Positions 33,857-53,292 of a stretch of DNA of 64,000 bases are shown here, in pieces. The position numbers and the translations under genes were made by a program. The stretch covers positions 1 to 64,000 of the forward strand of contig NZ_FNPX01000014.1 of NCBI RefSeq assembly GCF_900107415.1, read 5' to 3'. The DNA is from Jannaschia faecimaris. Its GTDB lineage: Bacteria; Pseudomonadota; Alphaproteobacteria; Rhodobacterales; Rhodobacteraceae. Within the stretch, counting starts at the first letter, position 1; each line of letters begins with the position of its first letter. The notes beneath the pieces were generated by a model, which was given only the letters and a program-made list of their open reading frames with translations, was not told the DNA's origin and did not search any database.

Positions 33857-35149
33857 ATGGCCCTTGATACACGCCCCGCCCCGCTGACCTACGATGCGGC
33901 TGTCAAAGACCTGTACGAAATGGGTGAAATGCCTCCGATGGGCCATGTCCCCAAGCAGATGTACGCTTGGGCCATTCGCCGCGAGCGGCACGGTGAGCCT
34001 GAAACCGCGATGCAGCAGGAAATCGTGGATGTTCCGGAACTGGACAGCCACGACGTCCTTGTTCTCGTGATGGCGGCGGGGATCAACTACAACGGTGTCT
34101 GGGCCGCGCGCGGCGAGCCGATCAGCCCGTTCGATGGCCATGGTCAGCCGTATCACATCGCCGGGTCGGATGCGTCCGGGATTGTCTGGGCCGTGGGCGA
34201 CAAGGTCAAGCGCTGGAAAGTGGGTGATGAGGTCGTCATCCACTGCAACCAGGACGATGGCGATGATGAGGAGTGCAACGGCGGCGACCCGATGTATTCA
34301 CCCACGCAGCGGATCTGGGGCTACGAGACGCCCGACGGCAGCTTCGCCCAGTTCACCCGTGTCCAGTCGCAACAGCTGATGCCGCGCCCCAGGCATCTGA
34401 CGTGGGAGCAGTCGGCCTGCTATACGCTCACCTTGGCCACTGCCTATCGCATGCTGTTCGGGCATGAACCGCATGACCTTAAGCCTGGTCAAAACGTGCT
34501 GGTTTGGGGGGCTTCCGGCGGCTTGGGGTCCTATGCGATCCAGCTGATCAATACGGCAGGTGCCAACGCGATCGGCGTCATCTCGGACGAGAGCAAGCGC
34601 GACTTCGTCATGGGGCTGGGTGCCAAGGGAGTCATTAATCGCAACGACTTCAACTGCTGGGGCCAGATGCCTACAGTCAACACGCCCGAGTACAAGGCCT
34701 GGTTCACCGAAGCGCGCAAGTTCGGCAAGGCGATCTGGGACATCACGGGCAAGGGCGTGAACGTCGATATGGTGTTCGAGCACCCCGGCGAAGCCACGTT
34801 CCCGGTCTCTACCTTCGTGTGCAAGAAGGGCGGCATGGTCGTAATCTGCGCCGGGACCACCGGATTCAACCTTACGTTTGACGTCCGCTACATGTGGATG
34901 CACCAGAAGCGCTTGCAGGGGTCCCACTTCGCTCACCTCAAGCAGGCGTCCGCCGCCAACAAGCTGATGGTCGAGCGGCGTCTTGATCCCTGCATGTCCG
35001 AATGTTTCGACTGGGCCGATTTGCCCGAAGCGCACATGAAAATGCGTCGGAACCAGCATAAGCCCGGCAACATGGCCGTTCTGGTTCAGGCCCCTGTGAC
35101 CGGGCTGCGCACCTTGGAAGACGTGCTGGAGGCCGGTTCGGCCACTTGA
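33857..35149 (+). CDS. ccr: Crotonyl-CoA carboxylase/reductase
   Basis: 430 residues, typical. MDR-family reductase without structural zinc. N-terminal region APLTYDAAVKDLYEMGEMPP, AGINYNGVWAARGEPISPFD, then the NADPH fold VLVWGASGGLGSYAIQLINT, and HQKRLQGSHFAHLKQ near the C-terminus, all characteristic of Ccr. It reductively carboxylates crotonyl-CoA to (2S)-ethylmalonyl-CoA using NADPH and CO2, the key step of the ethylmalonyl-CoA pathway. Upstream 111 bp contain TGCG-A-CGCA. GGAGGACATGAC spans the ribosome site. Terminator follows at 35171. Confidence 0.96.
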   Translation: MALDTRPAPLTYDAAVKDLYEMGEMPPMGHVPKQMYAWAIRRERHGEPETAMQQEIVDVPELDSHDVLVLVMAAGINYNGVWAARGEPISPFDGHGQPYHIAGSDASGIVWAVGDKVKRWKVGDEVVIHCNQDDGDDEECNGGDPMYSPTQRIWGYETPDGSFAQFTRVQSQQLMPRPRHLTWEQSACYTLTLATAYRMLFGHEPHDLKPGQNVLVWGASGGLGSYAIQLINTAGANAIGVISDESKRDFVMGLGAKGVINRNDFNCWGQMPTVNTPEYKAWFTEARKFGKAIWDITGKGVNVDMVFEHPGEATFPVSTFVCKKGGMVVICAGTTGFNLTFDVRYMWMHQKRLQGSHFAHLKQASAANKLMVERRLDPCMSECFDWADLPEAHMKMRRNQHKPGNMAVLVQAPVTGLRTLEDVLEAGSAT

Positions 35150-35170
35150 TCCCCTGCCGATTCTCGTTGC

Positions 35171-35201
35171 AACGGCCCCGTCTGACCGACGGGGCCGTTT
35201 T
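35171..35201 (+). terminator. ccr: Rho-independent terminator of ccr
   Basis: 12-bp stem aacggccccgtc/gacggggccgtt with a 5-base loop (35171-35199) and TTTT at the end, 22 bp after the ccr stop. Confidence 0.92.
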
Positions 35202-35727
35202 GCCTTGGTCCCATACGTCCGCGCTATCAATCGCGACCGATTGCAGTCCCCGCAGTTTCTGCGGAGGTCAGAAACGTGAATGGCCTGGTTTTCATCGGGC
35301 CGGCGCGCGTGCACCGCTTCGCGAAGAGCAAAGAAACAGTAAACTTGGCGGGGCTACTGGACGGGCGGCCACCGCTGCTCTCGCCAAAGCGGCCCGGGAT
35401 GCCGATGGTCAGGCGGTGCCGGATCGCCTGAAGTTGGACGACTGCCGGAGGGGCAAACGCATATCGCTGAACTAACGGACTTGCGCTAAGCGACTTGTGA
35501 CGAGCGCGCCCGCCTTTGGGAACAAGAGTTCAGCCTGCCGATCCGAGGTCCGCTTTGTCTTGTTTGTCGTAAGCAGACGTCCCGCAGGTGATGCCGAGGA
35601 TCGGTTCGACCGGCGGATAACAGGGAGCATTCGCCGGTGCACCAGAACCTTTTCGGCGGGCGCTAGGAAACCGTTAATCCGCCCCGCCTCATTCCCTCCC
35701 GTCACTATCGACAAAAAGGGGACAACT
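35202..35727. other. 526-bp gap upstream of luxI
   Basis: No convincing gene. Open frames here are short and Arg-rich, and the frame of luxI stays open back to 35497 without family similarity. I searched by eye for a lux box (about 20-bp palindrome) and found none. An inverted repeat accggcg/cgccggt with 16-bp spacing lies at 35609-35638. No luxR gene is present here or elsewhere in the window. Confidence 0.4.
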
Positions 35728-36351
35728 ATGATCCGCTATCTCTACGGTACGCAGCTGACCGACCATCCGGCGCTGGCCGCCGCCATGTTTGGCGACCGGG
35801 CCGCGCAATTTCGCGATCGCTTGGGCTGGGACGTCACGGTGGATGCGATGGGATGGGAGACGGATACCTATGACGCTCTGGATCCGCTCTACGTTATCGT
35901 TTGTGACGCGAAAGGCAGGCACGCCGGGTCCATGCGCTTTTTGCCGACGATAGGTCCGACGATGGTGTCGGAGGTCTTCCCGCATCTGACGGCGGGACCG
36001 GTCCGGTCGCCCGATGTCTGGGAATGTACTCGCGTCTGCCTGTCGCCGGGTACGGACGCGGGCGTGGCGGGACGACTTCTGCTGGGGGCATCGGAACTGG
36101 GGTTGGGTCTTGGCCTGAGGGCCTGCGTTGCGGTCTTCGATCAGGCCATGATGCGGGTCTGTCGTCGGCGGCGCTGGGCCCCAGACATCTTGGGCGGCGC
36201 GAACGGCATCAGCGTCGGTCGATGGACCTTTGACACCATCCGGCACGATGCGCTCTGCGCCGCGACTGGCACCTCGGCCCGGCAGTCGCGCGACTGGTGG
36301 GAGGTGACCTTCGGCGACCTGTCCATCGTGCCCCTTCCCGTCGGCGTCTGA
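35728..36351 (+). CDS. luxI: LuxI-family acyl-homoserine-lactone synthase
   Basis: 207 residues. The canonical residues fall at their usual positions: Arg24, Phe28 and Trp34 in FGDRAAQFRDRLGWDV, acidic residues in ETDTYDALDP, Arg70 in GSMRFLPT, Phe84 in SEVFPHL, and Glu99 in WECTRVCL. The ATG at 35728 has an AAGGGG ribosome site and starts the family-like sequence. It would make an AHL signal from SAM and acyl-ACP or acyl-CoA. Chain length cannot be inferred. There is no LuxR partner in the window. A helicase gene follows 17 bp later and an SDR gene overlaps that, so the three are likely one operon. Confidence 0.93.
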   Translation: MIRYLYGTQLTDHPALAAAMFGDRAAQFRDRLGWDVTVDAMGWETDTYDALDPLYVIVCDAKGRHAGSMRFLPTIGPTMVSEVFPHLTAGPVRSPDVWECTRVCLSPGTDAGVAGRLLLGASELGLGLGLRACVAVFDQAMMRVCRRRRWAPDILGGANGISVGRWTFDTIRHDALCAATGTSARQSRDWWEVTFGDLSIVPLPVGV

Positions 36352-36368
36352 GGGGCTACAAGGGGGCG

Positions 36369-37898
36369 ATGAACACGCCCGCCCCCCAACTCTCCCCGGA
36401 TCAGGCCGAAGCCTGGGATCGCATCGCTGAGGTGCTGTCCGACAGCGGCGTGTCGCTGGCCGACGGCTGGGCGTCTGAGCGGGAAGATGAGGAGAGCCGC
36501 GTGCTGGCAGTTACCGGCAAGGCAGGCTCGGGCAAGACCTTGTTGCTGGTGGAACTGGTCAAGTCCATGCGTGAAGCAGGTCTTGATTTGGTGACCGGTG
36601 ACTATGAGCGGAAGAAGAAGGACCGTCGATCGCTGGCTGTGCTGGCCCCTACGAACAAGGCCGCCAGCGTGTTGCGCAACAGGGGGGTGCCCGCGACGAC
36701 GATCCACCGCATTCTCTATACCCCTGTCTATGACCCTGAGTACGAACGGATCGCCGAGTGGCTGGCCGGGGATGCCAGCCGGCCTGACACTGACGCCCTG
36801 AGCGACGAGATGCTTGACCGCGCCAAGCGGGTCTTCGACGAGACAGGCTCCGTCCCCGGCGCGCTGGCTGCGGCTGGTCTGCGCGGATCGGATTTCATCA
36901 CCGGCTGGAAGCGGAGGGATAACCCGCTCGACGTGGGTTTTGTTGATGAATCCTCGATGCTCGATGACAAGCAGTTCGAAGACCTGAAGGAGATCTTTCC
37001 CACGTTGGTCCTGTTCGGCGATCCAGCTCAGCTAGCCCCGGTGAACCAGTCGGGGCGCATGGTTTTCGACCGGTTCTCCGGCGACGACCATCTGCATCTG
37101 GACCGGGTGCACCGACAAGAGGCGGACAATCCCATCCTGGATCTTGCCCATGCGCTGGGGGATTCGCAGCTTGGCTTCCACGAGTTTGAACAGATGATCG
37201 AAGAAGCCGCCGCCAAGGATGACCGCATCGTGGTTGCGGCCCGAGTGGACAGCGATCTGATGGCCCGGTCGCCGGTTCTGGTTTGGCGCAACGCGACCCG
37301 TATCCGCCTGATCCGCGCCTTCCGGCAGGCACACGGGGCCGATGACACGATGATGCTACCCGGCGAGCCGCTGATCTGCGACGGGCTGGAGCTGCCGCTC
37401 AAACACCGCAAGCGCCGCATTGATCTGGAGGCGCGGGGGCTGATCAAGGGCGCGCAGGTCGTTTACCTTGGGCCGGGGCGGAAACCGGGGTTCAGCAAGC
37501 TGCACGTGGTCGGCGCGCCCGAACCCGAGATTTCGGTCAGCTCCATCGTCAAGATCGAGCACCCGGATGAGGAGGAGCCCTTCCTTCCATTTGCCGCCCA
37601 CATGGGGGCGGCGTTCCTACACGGGGCTGCCGTCACCACGCACAAGGCGCAGGGGTCGCAGTGGGACAGCGTGCAGGTCTTTGCTCCCGATCTCTATGCC
37701 GCATCCCGCGCGGGCCGGGTCGAGGCGGGGCAACAGTTGTGGAAGCGGCTGGCCTATGTGGCGATCACGCGGGCCGTCTCTCGCCTGATCTGGGTGAAGC
37801 GCTATGCGCTGGCCATGCCCAAGTCGCCGCTGGACACGTCCGACTTGAAGGCCGAACCTGCGCCCCTGACACTCATGGCGCAGGAGGCCGAGGAATGA
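36369..37898 (+). CDS. RecD-like SF1B DNA helicase/ATPase
   Basis: 509 residues. Walker A in VTGKAGSGKTLLL (about 50), motif Ia LAPTNKAASVLRNRG, Walker B VDESSML, motif III LFGDPAQLAPVN, and the C-terminal TTHKAQGSQWDSV and YVAITRA motifs of the UvrD_C_2/RecD type. This matches RecD/TraA-like or Dda-like 5'-3' helicases. There are no RecB/RecC partners here. The ATG has GGGGGCG upstream. It lies 17 bp after luxI and shares a 4-bp overlap with the SDR gene. Role in repair or phage restriction is open. Confidence 0.88.
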   Translation: MNTPAPQLSPDQAEAWDRIAEVLSDSGVSLADGWASEREDEESRVLAVTGKAGSGKTLLLVELVKSMREAGLDLVTGDYERKKKDRRSLAVLAPTNKAASVLRNRGVPATTIHRILYTPVYDPEYERIAEWLAGDASRPDTDALSDEMLDRAKRVFDETGSVPGALAAAGLRGSDFITGWKRRDNPLDVGFVDESSMLDDKQFEDLKEIFPTLVLFGDPAQLAPVNQSGRMVFDRFSGDDHLHLDRVHRQEADNPILDLAHALGDSQLGFHEFEQMIEEAAAKDDRIVVAARVDSDLMARSPVLVWRNATRIRLIRAFRQAHGADDTMMLPGEPLICDGLELPLKHRKRRIDLEARGLIKGAQVVYLGPGRKPGFSKLHVVGAPEPEISVSSIVKIEHPDEEEPFLPFAAHMGAAFLHGAAVTTHKAQGSQWDSVQVFAPDLYAASRAGRVEAGQQLWKRLAYVAITRAVSRLIWVKRYALAMPKSPLDTSDLKAEPAPLTLMAQEAEE

Positions 37899-38617
37899 AC
37901 ACGATCCTGATCACAGGTGCCTCGTCGGGAATTGGTGCGGCGACAGCGAAACTGTTTCTGGATCGCGGCTGGACTGTGGGCCTGATGGCGCGCCGCGAAG
38001 AGGCCATGCGCGCGGTCGCCGCCGACCATCCGAATGCGCATATCCTGCCAGGTGACGTCACCGACCCCATACAAGCCGAGGCTACCGTCGATGCTTTCGT
38101 CGCGAAGGCCGGGCGTCTGGACGTGCTGTTCAACAACGCGGGCATTTTTATCCCTGCCGCTGACATTGACCGAACGGCTGTCGAGGATTGGAATACCGCC
38201 GTTTCAGTCAACTTGACGGGTATGTTTCTGATGGCCCGGGCGGCGTTCCGGGTGATGCGCGCACAGGGTGCGGGTCGGATCGTCAACAACGGCTCCATCA
38301 GCGCGCATGTGCCGCGCGAAGGGGCGGTGAGCTACACCGTTACCAAGCATGCCATCACAGGCCTGACGCGCCAGCTGGCGCTGGACGGACGGGCTCTGAA
38401 CATCGCTTGCGGTCAGATTGATATCGGCAATGCAAAGACCCCCATGCTGGAAGAGCTGGACGCCACGCAGCGCGCCAGTGGCGGTGCCGGTGTACCGATG
38501 ATGGCGGTCGAGGACGCGGCCCGCGCTGTCTTGCAAATGGCCGATTTGCCGGACGGCACCAACGTCCTGACCATGACGATCATGGCCAGCAAGATGCCCT
38601 ACGTTGGCCGCGGTTAA
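37895..38617 (+). CDS. Short-chain dehydrogenase/reductase (SDR)
   Basis: 240 residues, classical SDR. Nucleotide motif TGASSGIGAATAKLF at 7-21, NNAG motif (FNNAGIFIP), catalytic Ser in NNGSISAHVPREG and Tyr-Lys in SYTVTKHAITG, followed by the QIDIGNAKTPM loop. GLMARREE at the end of strand 2 suggests NADP preference. Substrate unknown. ATGA overlap with the helicase; converges with the TIGR02186 gene with a 4-bp overlap. A relation to the AHL signal is possible, since some SDRs reduce oxo-AHLs, but it is not shown. Confidence 0.88.
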   Translation: MNTILITGASSGIGAATAKLFLDRGWTVGLMARREEAMRAVAADHPNAHILPGDVTDPIQAEATVDAFVAKAGRLDVLFNNAGIFIPAADIDRTAVEDWNTAVSVNLTGMFLMARAAFRVMRAQGAGRIVNNGSISAHVPREGAVSYTVTKHAITGLTRQLALDGRALNIACGQIDIGNAKTPMLEELDATQRASGGAGVPMMAVEDAARAVLQMADLPDGTNVLTMTIMASKMPYVGRG

Positions 38618-39372
38618 CGTTTGAAGATGCGGAAGACGGCCGAAGCGCCCCAGCCCGCCGCTATCGCGATGAACAACGAGAGTAGGCCGTAGATCAGAGG
38701 CTGTTCATGGGCGAGAGCATAGATCCAACGTTCCAACCCGACCTTTTGAACGTAGATCGACGTGCCATAGCTATCGACCACCTTGCCGTCACGGGTCAGG
38801 AATATGCGGGTGTTGTAATTGCCCTCGGTCAAGTCGGCCGGCAGAGCGATCTCGGTCGAAAACAGGGTCGAGTCGCGGACATTCACCGACTCCTCCGAGG
38901 TGCCATAGATGCCCGAAGCCGTATGGACCCGGATCAGCGCATCGAGGAAATGGGGATCGCTGTCCGATATCATCGCCATTCCGGGGGCCGTCAGGGCGCG
39001 GCGGGTCGTGATGGACCATTCCTCGTCTTCCTCGGGCAGGAGGGCCTGCTCCAGGGGAACCGAGGACGACACGGCATAGAAGCTCGGCACGCCTATGGCT
39101 TCGATGGAGTCGGTGTTCACCCAGATGCCCAGACGCTTTTCCTTGCGACGGATCGTGACATCTTCGCGCGGGCCGGCCACGGTCACGATAATGGCAAGGC
39201 GCTGGCCGGTGGGCTCCGGCTGGTCGCGTTTGACCGCCCCGAAGATCAGAATTTCAGACCCGTCGAAATTGGTCGAGATGGAGATGCGATCCTGGCTCAT
39301 GTCGGCCACGATCTCTTCCGCCAGCAACGGCGCGGTCATCAGCAGCACAAGGGCAAGCGCGAGACGGATCAT
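38614..39372 (-). CDS. TIGR02186-family exported membrane protein
   Basis: 252 residues. Signal peptide MIRLALALVLLMTAPLLAEE, a large beta-rich periplasmic domain (ISISTNFDGSEILIFGAVKR, a segment typical of TIGR02186), and a C-terminal transmembrane helix (LIYGLLSLFIAIAAGWGASA) with a basic cytosolic tail. This family is known to sit beside TauE/TSUP exporters, as here, where it overlaps the exporter gene by 4 bp. An accessory role in sulfite or sulfonate export is likely but unproven. The longer open frame to 39945 runs inside the exporter and is not used. Confidence 0.85.
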   Translation of the reverse strand: MIRLALALVLLMTAPLLAEEIVADMSQDRISISTNFDGSEILIFGAVKRDQPEPTGQRLAIIVTVAGPREDVTIRRKEKRLGIWVNTDSIEAIGVPSFYAVSSSVPLEQALLPEEDEEWSITTRRALTAPGMAMISDSDPHFLDALIRVHTASGIYGTSEESVNVRDSTLFSTEIALPADLTEGNYNTRIFLTRDGKVVDSYGTSIYVQKVGLERWIYALAHEQPLIYGLLSLFIAIAAGWGASAVFRIFKR

Positions 39373-50276: not shown

Positions 50277-50755
50277 CCACCGCGATGATTCTCGGCTGTG
50301 CCGTGCTTCCCGACGGCAACCCGTCGCCGACGTTCGAATTGCGCATCCGCCATGCTTTCGAACTCTACCGGTCCGGACGTGTGTCACGGGTCTGCGTGAC
50401 CGGCGGCCTCGGACGATACGGGCCGCCCGAGGCCCATGTGGCCTATGACCGATTGCTCGCTCTTGGGGTGCGCTCAAACGACATACTGGTCGAGGACACG
50501 TCGATAAACACCATCCAGAATCTGACGCACGCGTTCCCGCTCGTTTCGGATGGTCCTGTCATACTCGTTTCCAACCGGTGGCATCTGCCGCGTGCGCGCC
50601 TTGTCGCGTGGATCATCGGTATGCCGGTGTCGGTGTCGGGGCCGCAGGGTACGGTCCCCCTGAAATCGACGATGGCGGCGATCCTGCGAGAGGTCGCCGC
50701 CACGCCATTCACGGTCGTGCGCGCAGTCAGGTGGGCGCGTCGCAACGCACGGTGA
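50273..50755 (+). CDS. YdcF/DUF218 family protein
   Basis: 160 residues. AMILGCAVLPDGNPSPTFEL (glycine-containing first loop), FELYRSGRVSRVCVTGG, GPPEAHVAYDRLLALGVRSN with acidic residue, LVEDTSINTIQNLTHAF (the conserved E..S.NT..N motif), and ILVSNRWHLPRARLVAW, the diagnostic end of DUF218. SAM binding has been reported for E. coli YdcF; function uncertain. Coupled to the previous gene by ATGA. Its last 29 bp overlap antisense with the end of the beta-helix gene. Confidence 0.87.
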   Translation: MTTAMILGCAVLPDGNPSPTFELRIRHAFELYRSGRVSRVCVTGGLGRYGPPEAHVAYDRLLALGVRSNDILVEDTSINTIQNLTHAFPLVSDGPVILVSNRWHLPRARLVAWIIGMPVSVSGPQGTVPLKSTMAAILREVAATPFTVVRAVRWARRNAR

Positions 50756-53027
50756 CGAAGCCGCGTCCCTTCACCGCCTCGGGCCAGTTCAGCCTGATGG
50801 ATTGCCTGTCGCTTCCCACCTGCCCGGTGGCATGGGGCGCGGAATAGACGGTCGTGTTGTTGCTTCTGCGTATTGCCCCGTCCGCCATGAATGCTGTGAT
50901 CACCTTTGCTTCGCCACCGAACGGAAGATAGTCGGCCAGGCTTACCTCCCAGGTCGATTGTACCGATCCTTCGTCGAGCGGGAGGGTAATTGGATTCTGG
51001 AACTGTTTTAGCACTGCGTGGAACGTGTTGGAATGGACGTTGACGTCCGTGAAGCGTTGGTAGTCCAGTTCTGCGTGGGTCGTATCGACCATGTCGACCC
51101 TTTCCAGTGCCTGTCCGCGGATCGTCTTGAACGAATTGCCGGTCACAGTCATCCCATTGACGTAATGCCCCGTTCCAAAAGGTTTGATGTGAAGCGGTCG
51201 ATAGCTGCTCGGGACATTGGAAGAGAAGATGATGTTGCCCACGATCTGCAAGCCGCCGAAGGAAAGCTCGCTTGCAAAATCGGGGTCACCGTCATGCTCG
51301 TTCGTCCACTCCAGATAGGCGTTGTCGACATAATTGCCCACGAAGACGGTTTTCGCCTGCGCCTCCGCAAACACGATTCCCGCAGTGCGGTTGCCCAACG
51401 CGTCGTTGTCGCCCTGGAAGAAATGGTTGCCCGTCACGATGTGCCCCGATCCGCCCAGCACGGCGAAATGCCGGAATTTTACCGCCCGGTTGTTGCGGAT
51501 CTTCGTGTCGTTGGCGTTCACGTTGAAGCCGATGCTGACCCGCTGGTTCACGTCGTCCTGCTGCTCGGAAGAAATGAACTGGCAGCGGTCGATCAGCAGG
51601 CCCTGACACCCAACTCCATGACTGGTGATGCCACGGTCCTTGGGGGCGTTGATATAACAGTCCTTCACATGAAAGATCAGGCCAGCTGGCGGCAACAGGA
51701 TGCCGGAAGAGCGCCCGGCCATCAGAATCTCGATATCCTCTAGCGTAAACCGCTGAAGTGTGTCGAAGCCGCTGAAATCGAGGGCATAGCGGAACCGCTT
51801 GAAGGTATAGGTCTGTCGGACTGGCGCGCCCCACAGGGCGGCGGATAACGTGATCTGGTTGCGCCCCACGTCCTTGGACAGCACGTAAACCTCGCGCCCG
51901 ACCCCCTGCGGGCCTTCGACAAGCGATCCGACCTCGATCTGCGCAATGTTTGCCACATTGGTCAGTTCGCGCGGTGTGGCCGGGTCGAAATCGGCCCCGC
52001 CTGTCGCGATGCCCGTGGCAAAGGCGGGCGAGTCCTGAATGTCGAGCTGGCCGTTCTTGATCGACCGCTGGTTGGCATAGGTCGTCTTGTCAAAGACGGC
52101 CGCCTGAACATCCAATGGCTGCGTCAGTTCGATCCGACGACCCCGAAGGTCCAGCGTATCGTGATCGGTGAAATTGAAAAGCGCCTGGATTCCCCGTCGC
52201 AACCCCTCTTCCTCAACCCCGCCGAAAGCGTCGATATAGCTGTTGATTTCGAAGTTCCGCACCAGGCTCAGGCGCTTGGACGCGGGCATCACGCAATGGC
52301 CCTGAAAACGGACGGGGCTGTTGAACGTCACATGCTCGTTCAGCATGTAGACGCCCTCCGATACCAGAACCGTTCGGCCATTCGCGGCGCTATCGGCCCG
52401 CTCGAAGGCCGCGCTGTCGTCGGTCACGCCGTCCCCAACCGCGCCATAGTCGCGCACATCGATCACGTCGATCAGGCCGCCCAAAAAGGCACCGGTTACG
52501 TCCTCGAGCTCGATATCGTCGATCCGTACGATTCCGCCGCTGTTCCCCAGAAGATCCAGACCCACGTGCACTGCCGCGACTTGCTCTCCGAATGTCAGAT
52601 CGACACCGCTGCGGTTGGATGTGGCGAAGATCACGCTGACCGTTTCGACTTGGCCATAGGACGAAAGGGTGATCTCGGATCCATAGGTATCGGGTCCGGA
52701 TACGACTGCGCCGTTCGAACTGACTGGTGTCACCGCCGCTCGCACACGCGGTAAATTGCCTGAGATTGCCTTCACCCGGACCGTGACCCGCAGATAGCAG
52801 CCGGGTGTGACTGGCGTGTCGCCCATCCAGCGGACTTTCTGAACCGTGCTTGCTTTCAGCAGCTCAAGCGCACCGCCAAAATCCTGGTCGGCCGGCACGA
52901 CCGCTGCATTGGTCGCATTGGCATAGGTGTCCGAACCGGGCACGCCGTCCTGGCTTGACCAGACGTCCAACCCGTTCTTGAACGGAGGTGGTGCCAATTG
53001 CAGTCCCTCAGTGATCACCTTGTTCAT
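50727..53027 (-). CDS. Large right-handed beta-helix protein, pectate-lyase/tailspike-like
   Basis: 766 residues. No signal peptide at the start MNKVITEGLQ (53027, ribosome site AAGGGG). Residues ~20-190 form a beta-sandwich-like carbohydrate-binding module (PGCYLRVTVRVKAI, VHVGLDLLGNSGGIVRIDDI). Then IDVRDYGAVGDGVTDDSAAF, the conserved start of the pectate-lyase-superfamily (GH28-like) beta-helix, followed by parallel coil segments such as CYINAPKDRGITSHGVGCQG, NVNANDTKIRNNRAVKFRHF and SGHIVTGNHFF. The final ~90 residues are a separate domain. It probably cleaves or binds a polysaccharide, as phage tailspikes and exopolysaccharide depolymerases do. Export route not evident. Confidence 0.75.
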   Translation of the reverse strand: MNKVITEGLQLAPPPFKNGLDVWSSQDGVPGSDTYANATNAAVVPADQDFGGALELLKASTVQKVRWMGDTPVTPGCYLRVTVRVKAISGNLPRVRAAVTPVSSNGAVVSGPDTYGSEITLSSYGQVETVSVIFATSNRSGVDLTFGEQVAAVHVGLDLLGNSGGIVRIDDIELEDVTGAFLGGLIDVIDVRDYGAVGDGVTDDSAAFERADSAANGRTVLVSEGVYMLNEHVTFNSPVRFQGHCVMPASKRLSLVRNFEINSYIDAFGGVEEEGLRRGIQALFNFTDHDTLDLRGRRIELTQPLDVQAAVFDKTTYANQRSIKNGQLDIQDSPAFATGIATGGADFDPATPRELTNVANIAQIEVGSLVEGPQGVGREVYVLSKDVGRNQITLSAALWGAPVRQTYTFKRFRYALDFSGFDTLQRFTLEDIEILMAGRSSGILLPPAGLIFHVKDCYINAPKDRGITSHGVGCQGLLIDRCQFISSEQQDDVNQRVSIGFNVNANDTKIRNNRAVKFRHFAVLGGSGHIVTGNHFFQGDNDALGNRTAGIVFAEAQAKTVFVGNYVDNAYLEWTNEHDGDPDFASELSFGGLQIVGNIIFSSNVPSSYRPLHIKPFGTGHYVNGMTVTGNSFKTIRGQALERVDMVDTTHAELDYQRFTDVNVHSNTFHAVLKQFQNPITLPLDEGSVQSTWEVSLADYLPFGGEAKVITAFMADGAIRRSNNTTVYSAPHATGQVGSDRQSIRLNWPEAVKGRGFVTVRCDAPT

Positions 53028-53081
53028 TTCAGTCCCCTTCGGCCTTGCGCCAGTGCAGTTCTTGATGGTGCCCAAACGAAA

Positions 53082-53116: not shown

Positions 53117-53292
53117 GTCAGTGCGTATGCGGGGTTCCCCCGCAGAGGGGCGACTCAGTTGCCCCGATGGAGATCAATCTGCTCGGGAACGATTAACAGG
53201 CGGTTAAGCAAAATCGGCAACGATCCATTGCTCCCGACAATCATAGTGTTTCGATCTGGCCCAGATCTCGGCCAAGTATGCGAGCCGTCGCT

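Follow-up and report, generated by a model that had tools for sequence, protein, structure and literature searches.

A luxI gene preceded by relics of luxR in Jannaschia faecimaris: a probable decaying quorum-sensing cassette of the roseobacter B1 type

Organization of the locus

We analysed a stretch of 64,000 nucleotides from Jannaschia faecimaris (Rhodobacteraceae; RefSeq assembly GCF_900107415.1, contig NZ_FNPX01000014.1, positions 1 to 64,000 of the forward strand), here called the window, which contains a luxI gene for a predicted N-acyl-homoserine lactone (AHL) synthase without an intact luxR receptor gene beside it. A previous interpretation made from the sequence alone (the sequence-only reading) had placed luxI 17 bp from a RecD-like helicase gene, which in turn overlaps a short-chain dehydrogenase/reductase (SDR) gene by 4 bp. 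Coordinates, gap and overlap were confirmed on the sequence: luxI runs from its ATG at 35728 to a stop codon at 36349-36351, the helicase gene extends from ATG at 36369 to TGA at 37896-37898, and the SDR gene begins at 37895, where the shared ATGA forms the overlap, and ends at 38617. The features of the locus are listed below.

33857..35149, + strand: ccr, crotonyl-CoA carboxylase/reductase-like gene (430-aa open reading frame, ORF; named after PMC3824088 and by eye)
35150..35727, + strand: ccr-luxI gap of 578 bp, the site of luxR in relatives
35413..35491, + strand: luxR relic 1, the start of luxR (profile positions 3-83, with single-base gaps; nhmmer DNA profile)
35503..35572, + strand: luxR relic 2, the middle of luxR (profile positions 322-400, with 17 consecutive consensus bases; nhmmer DNA profile)
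35663..35678, + strand: weak CtrA-like box, CTAG-N7-TTAAT, 65 bp upstream of the luxI start codon (motif scan)
35728..36351, + strand: luxI (AHL synthase, 207 aa; PF00765 and AlphaFold; B1 type by synteny)
36369..37898, + strand: superfamily 1B (SF1B) helicase gene, RecD/Dda-like, 509 aa (Pfam, profile and fold matches)
37895..38617, + strand: SDR gene, 240 aa (PF00106)

The contig that carries the locus is 103 kb long, with the locus 36 kb from its start, and belongs to a 3.81-Mb draft genome (48 contigs, 99.95% complete). Pfam assigned LuxI to PF00765 (E 1.9e-21; 76.9 bits, curated cut-off 24), the helicase to PF13604 (E 2.9e-23), with UvrD_C_2 marginally below its cut-off (27.3 versus 27.4 bits), and the SDR to PF00106 (E 2.8e-47). 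A homologue of ccr with 82-94% identity was found upstream of the cassette or helicase gene in 15 of 19 relatives from the genus (16 of 20 with the window).

In the genus, the gap between luxI and the helicase gene measured 16-19 bp in 15 of 19 genomes (24, 38, 54 and 160 bp in the others), and helicase and SDR genes overlapped by 4 bp in all 15 loci in which the SDR was found; at the cut-off used (E 1e-20), it was not found in 5 of 20 loci. The three genes thus form a tight block with conserved spacing, as the sequence-only reading had supposed, and the adjacency of luxI and helicase gene is itself conserved in 79 of 149 genomes of the family. A simple scan of 35100-38700, which does not cover all promoter types, revealed no sigma-70-like promoter, and a similarly simple scan placed all four terminator-like matches elsewhere and none between luxI and the helicase gene.

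Relationship to published topologies

The link between luxI and a helicase gene had been considered unexpected. It is, however, an established synteny, the same as in many marine relatives: in the roseobacter B topology, a crotonyl-CoA reductase gene is followed by luxR, luxI and an ATP-dependent helicase gene, and the B1 variant, found in 14 roseobacter genomes, has a short-chain dehydrogenase gene after the helicase gene (Cude & Buchan 2013, PMC3824088). Action of the SDR on AHL substrates was already suggested in that paper. Because a ccr-like gene is present at 33857-35149, upstream of luxI, helicase and SDR genes in the same order, we assign the locus to B1. Directly before luxI, where B1 has luxR, only relics were found, and the locus is therefore a B1 derivative rather than strict B1. 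In this respect it differs from the B-type loci in Table A1 of the same paper, all of which are listed with luxR. An orphan (solo) luxI is defined there as one without an immediately adjacent luxR, and this describes luxI in the window.

Roseobacter orphan luxI genes of topologies H, I and J, and sscI of Ruegeria sp. KLH11, likewise have no adjacent luxR. According to the published descriptions, however, those of H, I and J adjoin histidine kinase genes and sscI is a proposed duplication, whereas the orphan in the window appears to result from decay of luxR in place. Group 2 LuxR solos (ccr-luxR solo-helicase; Subramoni et al. 2015, PMC4338825) share the flanks of the window locus and the loss of half of the pair but are its mirror image, with luxR kept and luxI absent. 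This mirror case indicates that either half of the pair can be lost at the site. Another B1 operon, judged by locus tags, is luxR2-luxI2 (Dshi_2852/2851) of Dinoroseobacter shibae, where luxI2 is Dshi_2851 by elimination (from PMC4046655, with luxI1 as Dshi_0312, and Table A1 of PMC3824088). A limited literature search found no published description of a B1 locus with decayed luxR and retained luxI.

Distribution of the cassette

We surveyed the neighbourhood in 149 genomes of the family, one per genus, reading gene order from joined match coordinates and leaving luxI matches weaker than about E 1e-17 out of the counts. luxR, luxI and the helicase gene stood in a row in at least 72 genomes. 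The helicase gene was accompanied by luxI without luxR among the matches listed in seven genomes (the window included), by luxR without luxI in at least six and by neither among the matches listed in 60; four genomes had no helicase gene. When the luxI-helicase genomes were rechecked, luxR was present in G066, present in two stretches in G013, and moved and inverted in G069, while in G061, G095 and G098 (no luxR among the matches listed) the locus lies <400 bp from a contig end and cannot be judged. We fetched 52 of the 60 helicase loci with neither luxI nor luxR among the matches listed; 32 of the 52 had ccr within 3 kb upstream of the helicase gene on the same strand.

Within the genus (20 genomes, the window's included), 19 genomes carried this luxI and 15 had luxR directly before it. 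Upstream of luxR, ccr was found in 12 of these 15 loci; it was not in the fetched stretch of G153, G164 and G165. luxI occurred without luxR in the window, G156, G159 and G161, of which G159 was also without ccr. Neither luxR nor luxI was present in G160, which had only reductase, helicase and SDR genes. The closest named LuxI relatives in one contig scan came from Jannaschia rubra (64%) and an uncultured Jannaschia (60%).

Loci of the mirror-image kind, with luxR directly before the helicase gene and no luxI, were seen in G018, G039, G050, G070 and G088 (L163-L167), which were fetched, and in G139, where the locus is at a contig edge. At L168 (G013), the two tblastn stretches of luxR overlap and precede an open luxI, as if luxR were frame-broken; this may be a further early loss of luxR, outside the genus of the window.

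Relics of luxR upstream of luxI

The statement of the sequence-only reading that no luxR is found in the window held for an intact gene, but remnants of luxR upstream of luxI, and ccr before them, had been overlooked. Counting from where the ccr match ends, the ccr-luxI gap spanned 578 bp in the window versus 1154-1320 bp in the 12 luxR-bearing loci; in G156 and G161 it was 215 and 251 bp. We built a luxR DNA profile from 12 relatives and used nhmmer to search the whole window on both strands. The top match in the 64 kb was at 35503-35579 (E 7e-4). The fifth-best, at 35413-35491, was not significant alone (E 0.76), and the two relics are colinear with luxR in order and strand. Searching the gap only, the profile gave E 8.5e-6 for relic 2 and E 0.007 for relic 1, and none of 1000 dinucleotide shuffles of the gap reached 5 bits. 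The alignments contain single-base gaps, and the reading frame of the relic luxR is thus broken. The relics emerged only with the DNA profile: a loose protein search by tblastn performed no better than on shuffled sequence (E 0.001 for the relic and 4e-4 for the best match in 35001-35900, compared with 5e-5 to 0.026 for 20 base-composition shuffles). At the remaining loci without luxR (G156, G161 and G159), the gaps yielded no luxR relics.

The LuxR ligand-binding domain PF03472 had a single match in the draft genome (1 to 6 per genome in the genus, median 4). Since this sole match is on another contig, beside a second luxI, we conclude that the absence of an intact luxR from the window is real. 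A LuxR of the cassette type was not found in the rest of the draft genome, where the closest match, the LuxR of contig 33, was 27% identical. The sisters of the window genome, G150 and G152, whose helicases are 93 and 92% identical to that of the window, each carry luxR, which places its loss in the window's own lineage. In our view, luxI stands alone because luxR has decayed where it stood.

The second luxR-luxI pair, on contig 33 (L117, 3113-4392), encodes a LuxR of 204 aa and a LuxI of 195 aa; rpoA-like and RarA-like genes were recognized nearby by eye. A guess from gene context only is that this pair possibly has the roseobacter C topology (Dshi_0311/0312 type).

CtrA boxes in the control region

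In D. shibae, expression of luxR2I2 is lower in a ctrA mutant, and two perfect CtrA sites precede luxR2 (PMC4046655). An orthologue of CtrA, with 76% identity to that of Caulobacter, is encoded in the genome under study. In the genus, all 12 luxR-bearing loci with ccr had a perfect CtrA box (TTAA-N7-TTAAC) before luxR, 132-191 bp past the end of the ccr match, and none of the three luxR-less luxI loci with ccr (window, G156 and G161) had one. The gap in the window held no perfect or one-mismatch box and a single box with two mismatches, at 35663. The window has lost both the receptor and the CtrA box that are present in D. shibae.

For other genera, we took the 29 family loci most similar to the window LuxI, of which 27 were used (L011 and L032 were dropped because their upstream stretch is too short). 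Nine of the 27 had a perfect TTAA-N7-TTAA at -993 to -1047 from luxI, compared with a mean of 0.03 in shuffles, and one of the nine had a second perfect site at -100; shuffles for CtrA boxes preserved base composition only, not dinucleotides. The perfect box was absent from all 32 reductase-helicase spacers without luxR and luxI and from all three luxR-only loci with a measurable ccr-helicase stretch. These absences indicate that the perfect box goes with the paired luxR-luxI cassette and not with the helicase gene.

Closer to luxI, a TTAA-N7-TTAA site with at most two mismatches was found at -72 to -58 for 18 of 19 luxI genes of the genus (shuffles: mean 0.36, maximum 3); sites with two mismatches are in general frequent in the window (41, compared with 44.7 expected). 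Shortly before luxI, luxR-less G156, G159 (perfect, at -87) and G161 had sites with no more than one mismatch, as did luxR-bearing G150, G153 and G165. To judge from these boxes, CtrA would bind at the cassette.

State of the LuxI protein

The AlphaFold model of LuxI (predicted local distance difference test score, pLDDT, 90) has an AHL-synthase fold: the top 12 Foldseek matches were AHL synthases (query template modelling, TM, score 0.58-0.78), and the best PDB matches were RpaI, LasI, TofI, MesI and BjaI. At 57 columns that are invariant in the 18 genus relatives, the window LuxI has four private changes (F103V, Y145C, L148R and G149R), whereas 15 of the 18 relatives have none, G165 has one and G151 has three. 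All 47 relatives have glycine at position 149, as does the second LuxI of the strain, which shares V103 with the window protein. In the model, residue 149 follows the helix 139-147, which G149 may cap. G149R and L148R leave the predicted AHL synthesis by the window LuxI uncertain.

Compared with each of the two sisters (G150 and G152), the window LuxI had 28 private substitutions versus 14 (p 0.044 each). The numbers for the helicase were 14 versus 14 (G150) and 14 versus 23 (G152), for ccr 17 versus 13 and 17 versus 6, and for the SDR 11 versus 6 and 11 versus 25.

A probable decaying quorum-sensing cassette

Taken together, the relics, the missing box and the private changes in LuxI make it likely that the locus is a decaying, formerly CtrA-controlled B1 quorum-sensing cassette, in which luxR and its CtrA-box promoter have decayed with the loss of about 600 bp. 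In the ancestral state, the cell-cycle regulator CtrA would have switched on luxR-luxI, LuxI would have made a long-chain AHL and LuxR would have read it. After decay of luxR and its promoter, luxI, helicase and SDR genes would have persisted as a closely spaced block, and the latter two presumably now run from a remaining promoter near luxI. The window LuxI would feed its signal at most to the single other LuxR, that of the second pair on contig 33, and AHL output may be reduced or pointless for self-sensing.

Several observations weigh against this explanation. The luxI frame is open over its full length, and all nine residues that we take to be canonical for LuxI (R24, F28, W34, D46, D49, R70, F84, E99 and R102) are present, as the sequence-only reading had noted, and invariant in 47 of 47 relatives. 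Private changes in LuxI are more numerous (six) in luxR-bearing G163 than in the window, and over 48 sequences the window has two, equal to G151 and G163. The relative-rate p values for LuxI are marginal, and the two tests share the same 28 changes; ccr also showed an excess against one sister (17 versus 6, p 0.035). A codon branch model gave no significant sign of relaxed selection (omega, the ratio of non-synonymous to synonymous rates, 0.130 versus 0.104 in the background; likelihood-ratio test, LRT, 0.46), and neutrality was rejected on the window LuxI branch (LRT 29.3); the fit was capped at 40 iterations of the optimiser, and re-optimisation in the tests covered only kappa, the omegas and the foreground branch. 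As neutrality is rejected and omega is not significantly above background, LuxI may be functional and selected. A luxR protein profile was not significant, its best match among 1750 fragments falling on the relic with E 0.65. Outside the genus, 18 of the 27 luxI loci had no perfect CtrA box, and with only nine loci holding one, CtrA control is not universal. Finally, the genome is a draft in 48 contigs, and some chance remains that a luxR lies in an assembly gap. We take the LuxI data as weak evidence that selection on the gene, which had acted along most of the branch, was recently relaxed.

Receptor-less signalling as an alternative

An alternative that we regard as possible, though only tentatively, is signalling that is receptor-less but active: LuxI would be under selection, either the contig-33 LuxR or neighbours would respond to its AHL, and luxR loss would be a recurrent rewiring in the genus. 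It shares the account of luxR loss with the decaying cassette and differs in holding that LuxI is still useful. Four genomes of the genus keep an intact luxI without luxR, and on their terminal branches omega was low (0.130, 0.111, 0.062 and 0.066) and neutrality was rejected (LRT 24-33). These branches, however, include time before the loss, and a low omega is no proof of later selection. The CtrA-like boxes with at most one mismatch before luxI in three of the four (G156, G161 and G159) also speak for this alternative, but the box in the window is the weaker CTAG-N7-TTAAT form, and the arginine at position 149 replaces a glycine conserved in all relatives and the second LuxI. For Vibrio fischeri, it has been proposed that making the signal brings a selective benefit beyond its known part in regulation (PMC3688970).

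A wider proposal, which we consider doubtful, is that bacteria of the Jannaschia kind have lost the receptor at least three times while the synthase stayed intact and kept or gained a CtrA box of its own. The number of losses was read off the LuxI tree, in which G156 and G159 group with support of 99, and G161 groups with luxR-bearing G164 and G165 with support of 100; this tree was used because a genus tree from helicase, ccr and SDR has many weak nodes. If the proposal is true, AHL would be emitted on a cell-cycle cue without a cognate receptor beside the synthase. Quorum sensing would have turned into a one-way broadcast, read by a second LuxR or by other species, and the window strain would be a case in which the broadcast is now fading.

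The synteny being already known, the remaining interest of the locus is the replicated receptor loss within one genus. The genus provides natural replicates at one site, with luxR and luxI, with luxI only and with neither (luxR-only loci occur in other genera of the family). These could be used to test stepwise loss of receptor and synthase in AHL circuits, and to ask if something other than self-sensing maintains a CtrA-driven synthase. The puzzle of a luxI without luxR beside a helicase gene receives an ordinary cause, and the helicase would be a neighbour at the site and not an effector of quorum sensing.

A helicase probably independent of quorum sensing

The helicase resembles the SF1B helicases T4 Dda and RecD2 in fold and in Walker A, Walker B and motifs III, V and VI (read by eye), but its 509 residues are only 16-18% identical to them. 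Its model (pLDDT 74.6) had T4 Dda, DSH9 and RecD2 as best Foldseek matches, with T4 Dda at ranks 1-2 (E 1e-16, query TM score 0.47-0.52), and its best viral profile was phrog_325, 'Dda-like helicase' (E 3.1e-51, residues 7-476). As a RecD2 or RecD equivalog it was rejected, reaching 61.4 of 500 and 46.4 of 310 bits of the NCBIfam cut-offs.

Of the 149 family genomes, 145 carried the helicase, as did all 20 genomes of the genus, including genomes without luxI; its relatives in the family are 55-93% identical. In a class-wide draw of 240 genomes, three matched at E 1e-60, a cut-off that leaves room for more distant homologues outside the family, and all three belong to the same family. This form of the helicase therefore looks like a family trait; it is apparently family-specific and near-universal in the family. 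Because 145 of 149 genomes carry it, often without luxI, it is a core neighbour and not a payload of quorum sensing. The quorum-sensing cassette is best read as sitting in, and often being lost from, a stable reductase-helicase neighbourhood, in which the helicase probably persists because of its own function.

This distribution bears on the proposal of the sequence-only reading that AHL signalling controls the helicase, for repair, DNA uptake or an anti-phage role, in one functional unit in which the SDR tailors the signal. We consider this unlikely. The tight conserved spacing and the adjacency of luxI and helicase gene in 79 of 149 genomes would suit such a unit, quorum sensing, CtrA and the SOS response have been linked in D. 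shibae (PMC6473078), and an operon of LuxR solo and helicase has been proposed (PMC4338825). However, 60 of the 145 helicase genomes had no luxI, and no luxR among the matches listed, beside the helicase gene. Density-dependent deployment of the helicase is not borne out, given its presence in genomes without luxI and the lack of a perfect CtrA box in all 32 spacers from which the cassette is missing. In addition, the SDR was not found at E 1e-20 in five of 20 genus loci, and the D. shibae time-course paper does not use the word 'helicase' in its main text. The anti-phage role received no specific support: no defence family was specifically matched, and 20 PADLOC models at E <=0.01 proved to be longer helicase models matched over the helicase motifs, as expected of any RecD-like helicase, and they were not taken to mark a defence gene. 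The best of these were PDC-M16A (E 2.7e-23) and typeIV_RecD (E 7.2e-18); among the three proteins scanned, LuxI and the SDR matched none.

That the strain has a luxR which was misassembled or broken by sequencing error is very improbable: the assembly is a draft in 48 contigs, but the locus lies well inside its contig, about 600 bp are missing rather than a few bases, and the nearly complete genome has a single PF03472 match.

Outside the cassette, the sole exact TTAA-N7-TTAA in the window was at 53193-53207, about 118 bp upstream of a minus-strand ORF of 782 aa (50727-53075), the product of which, judged by eye, looks like a parallel beta-helix or tail-spike-like protein.

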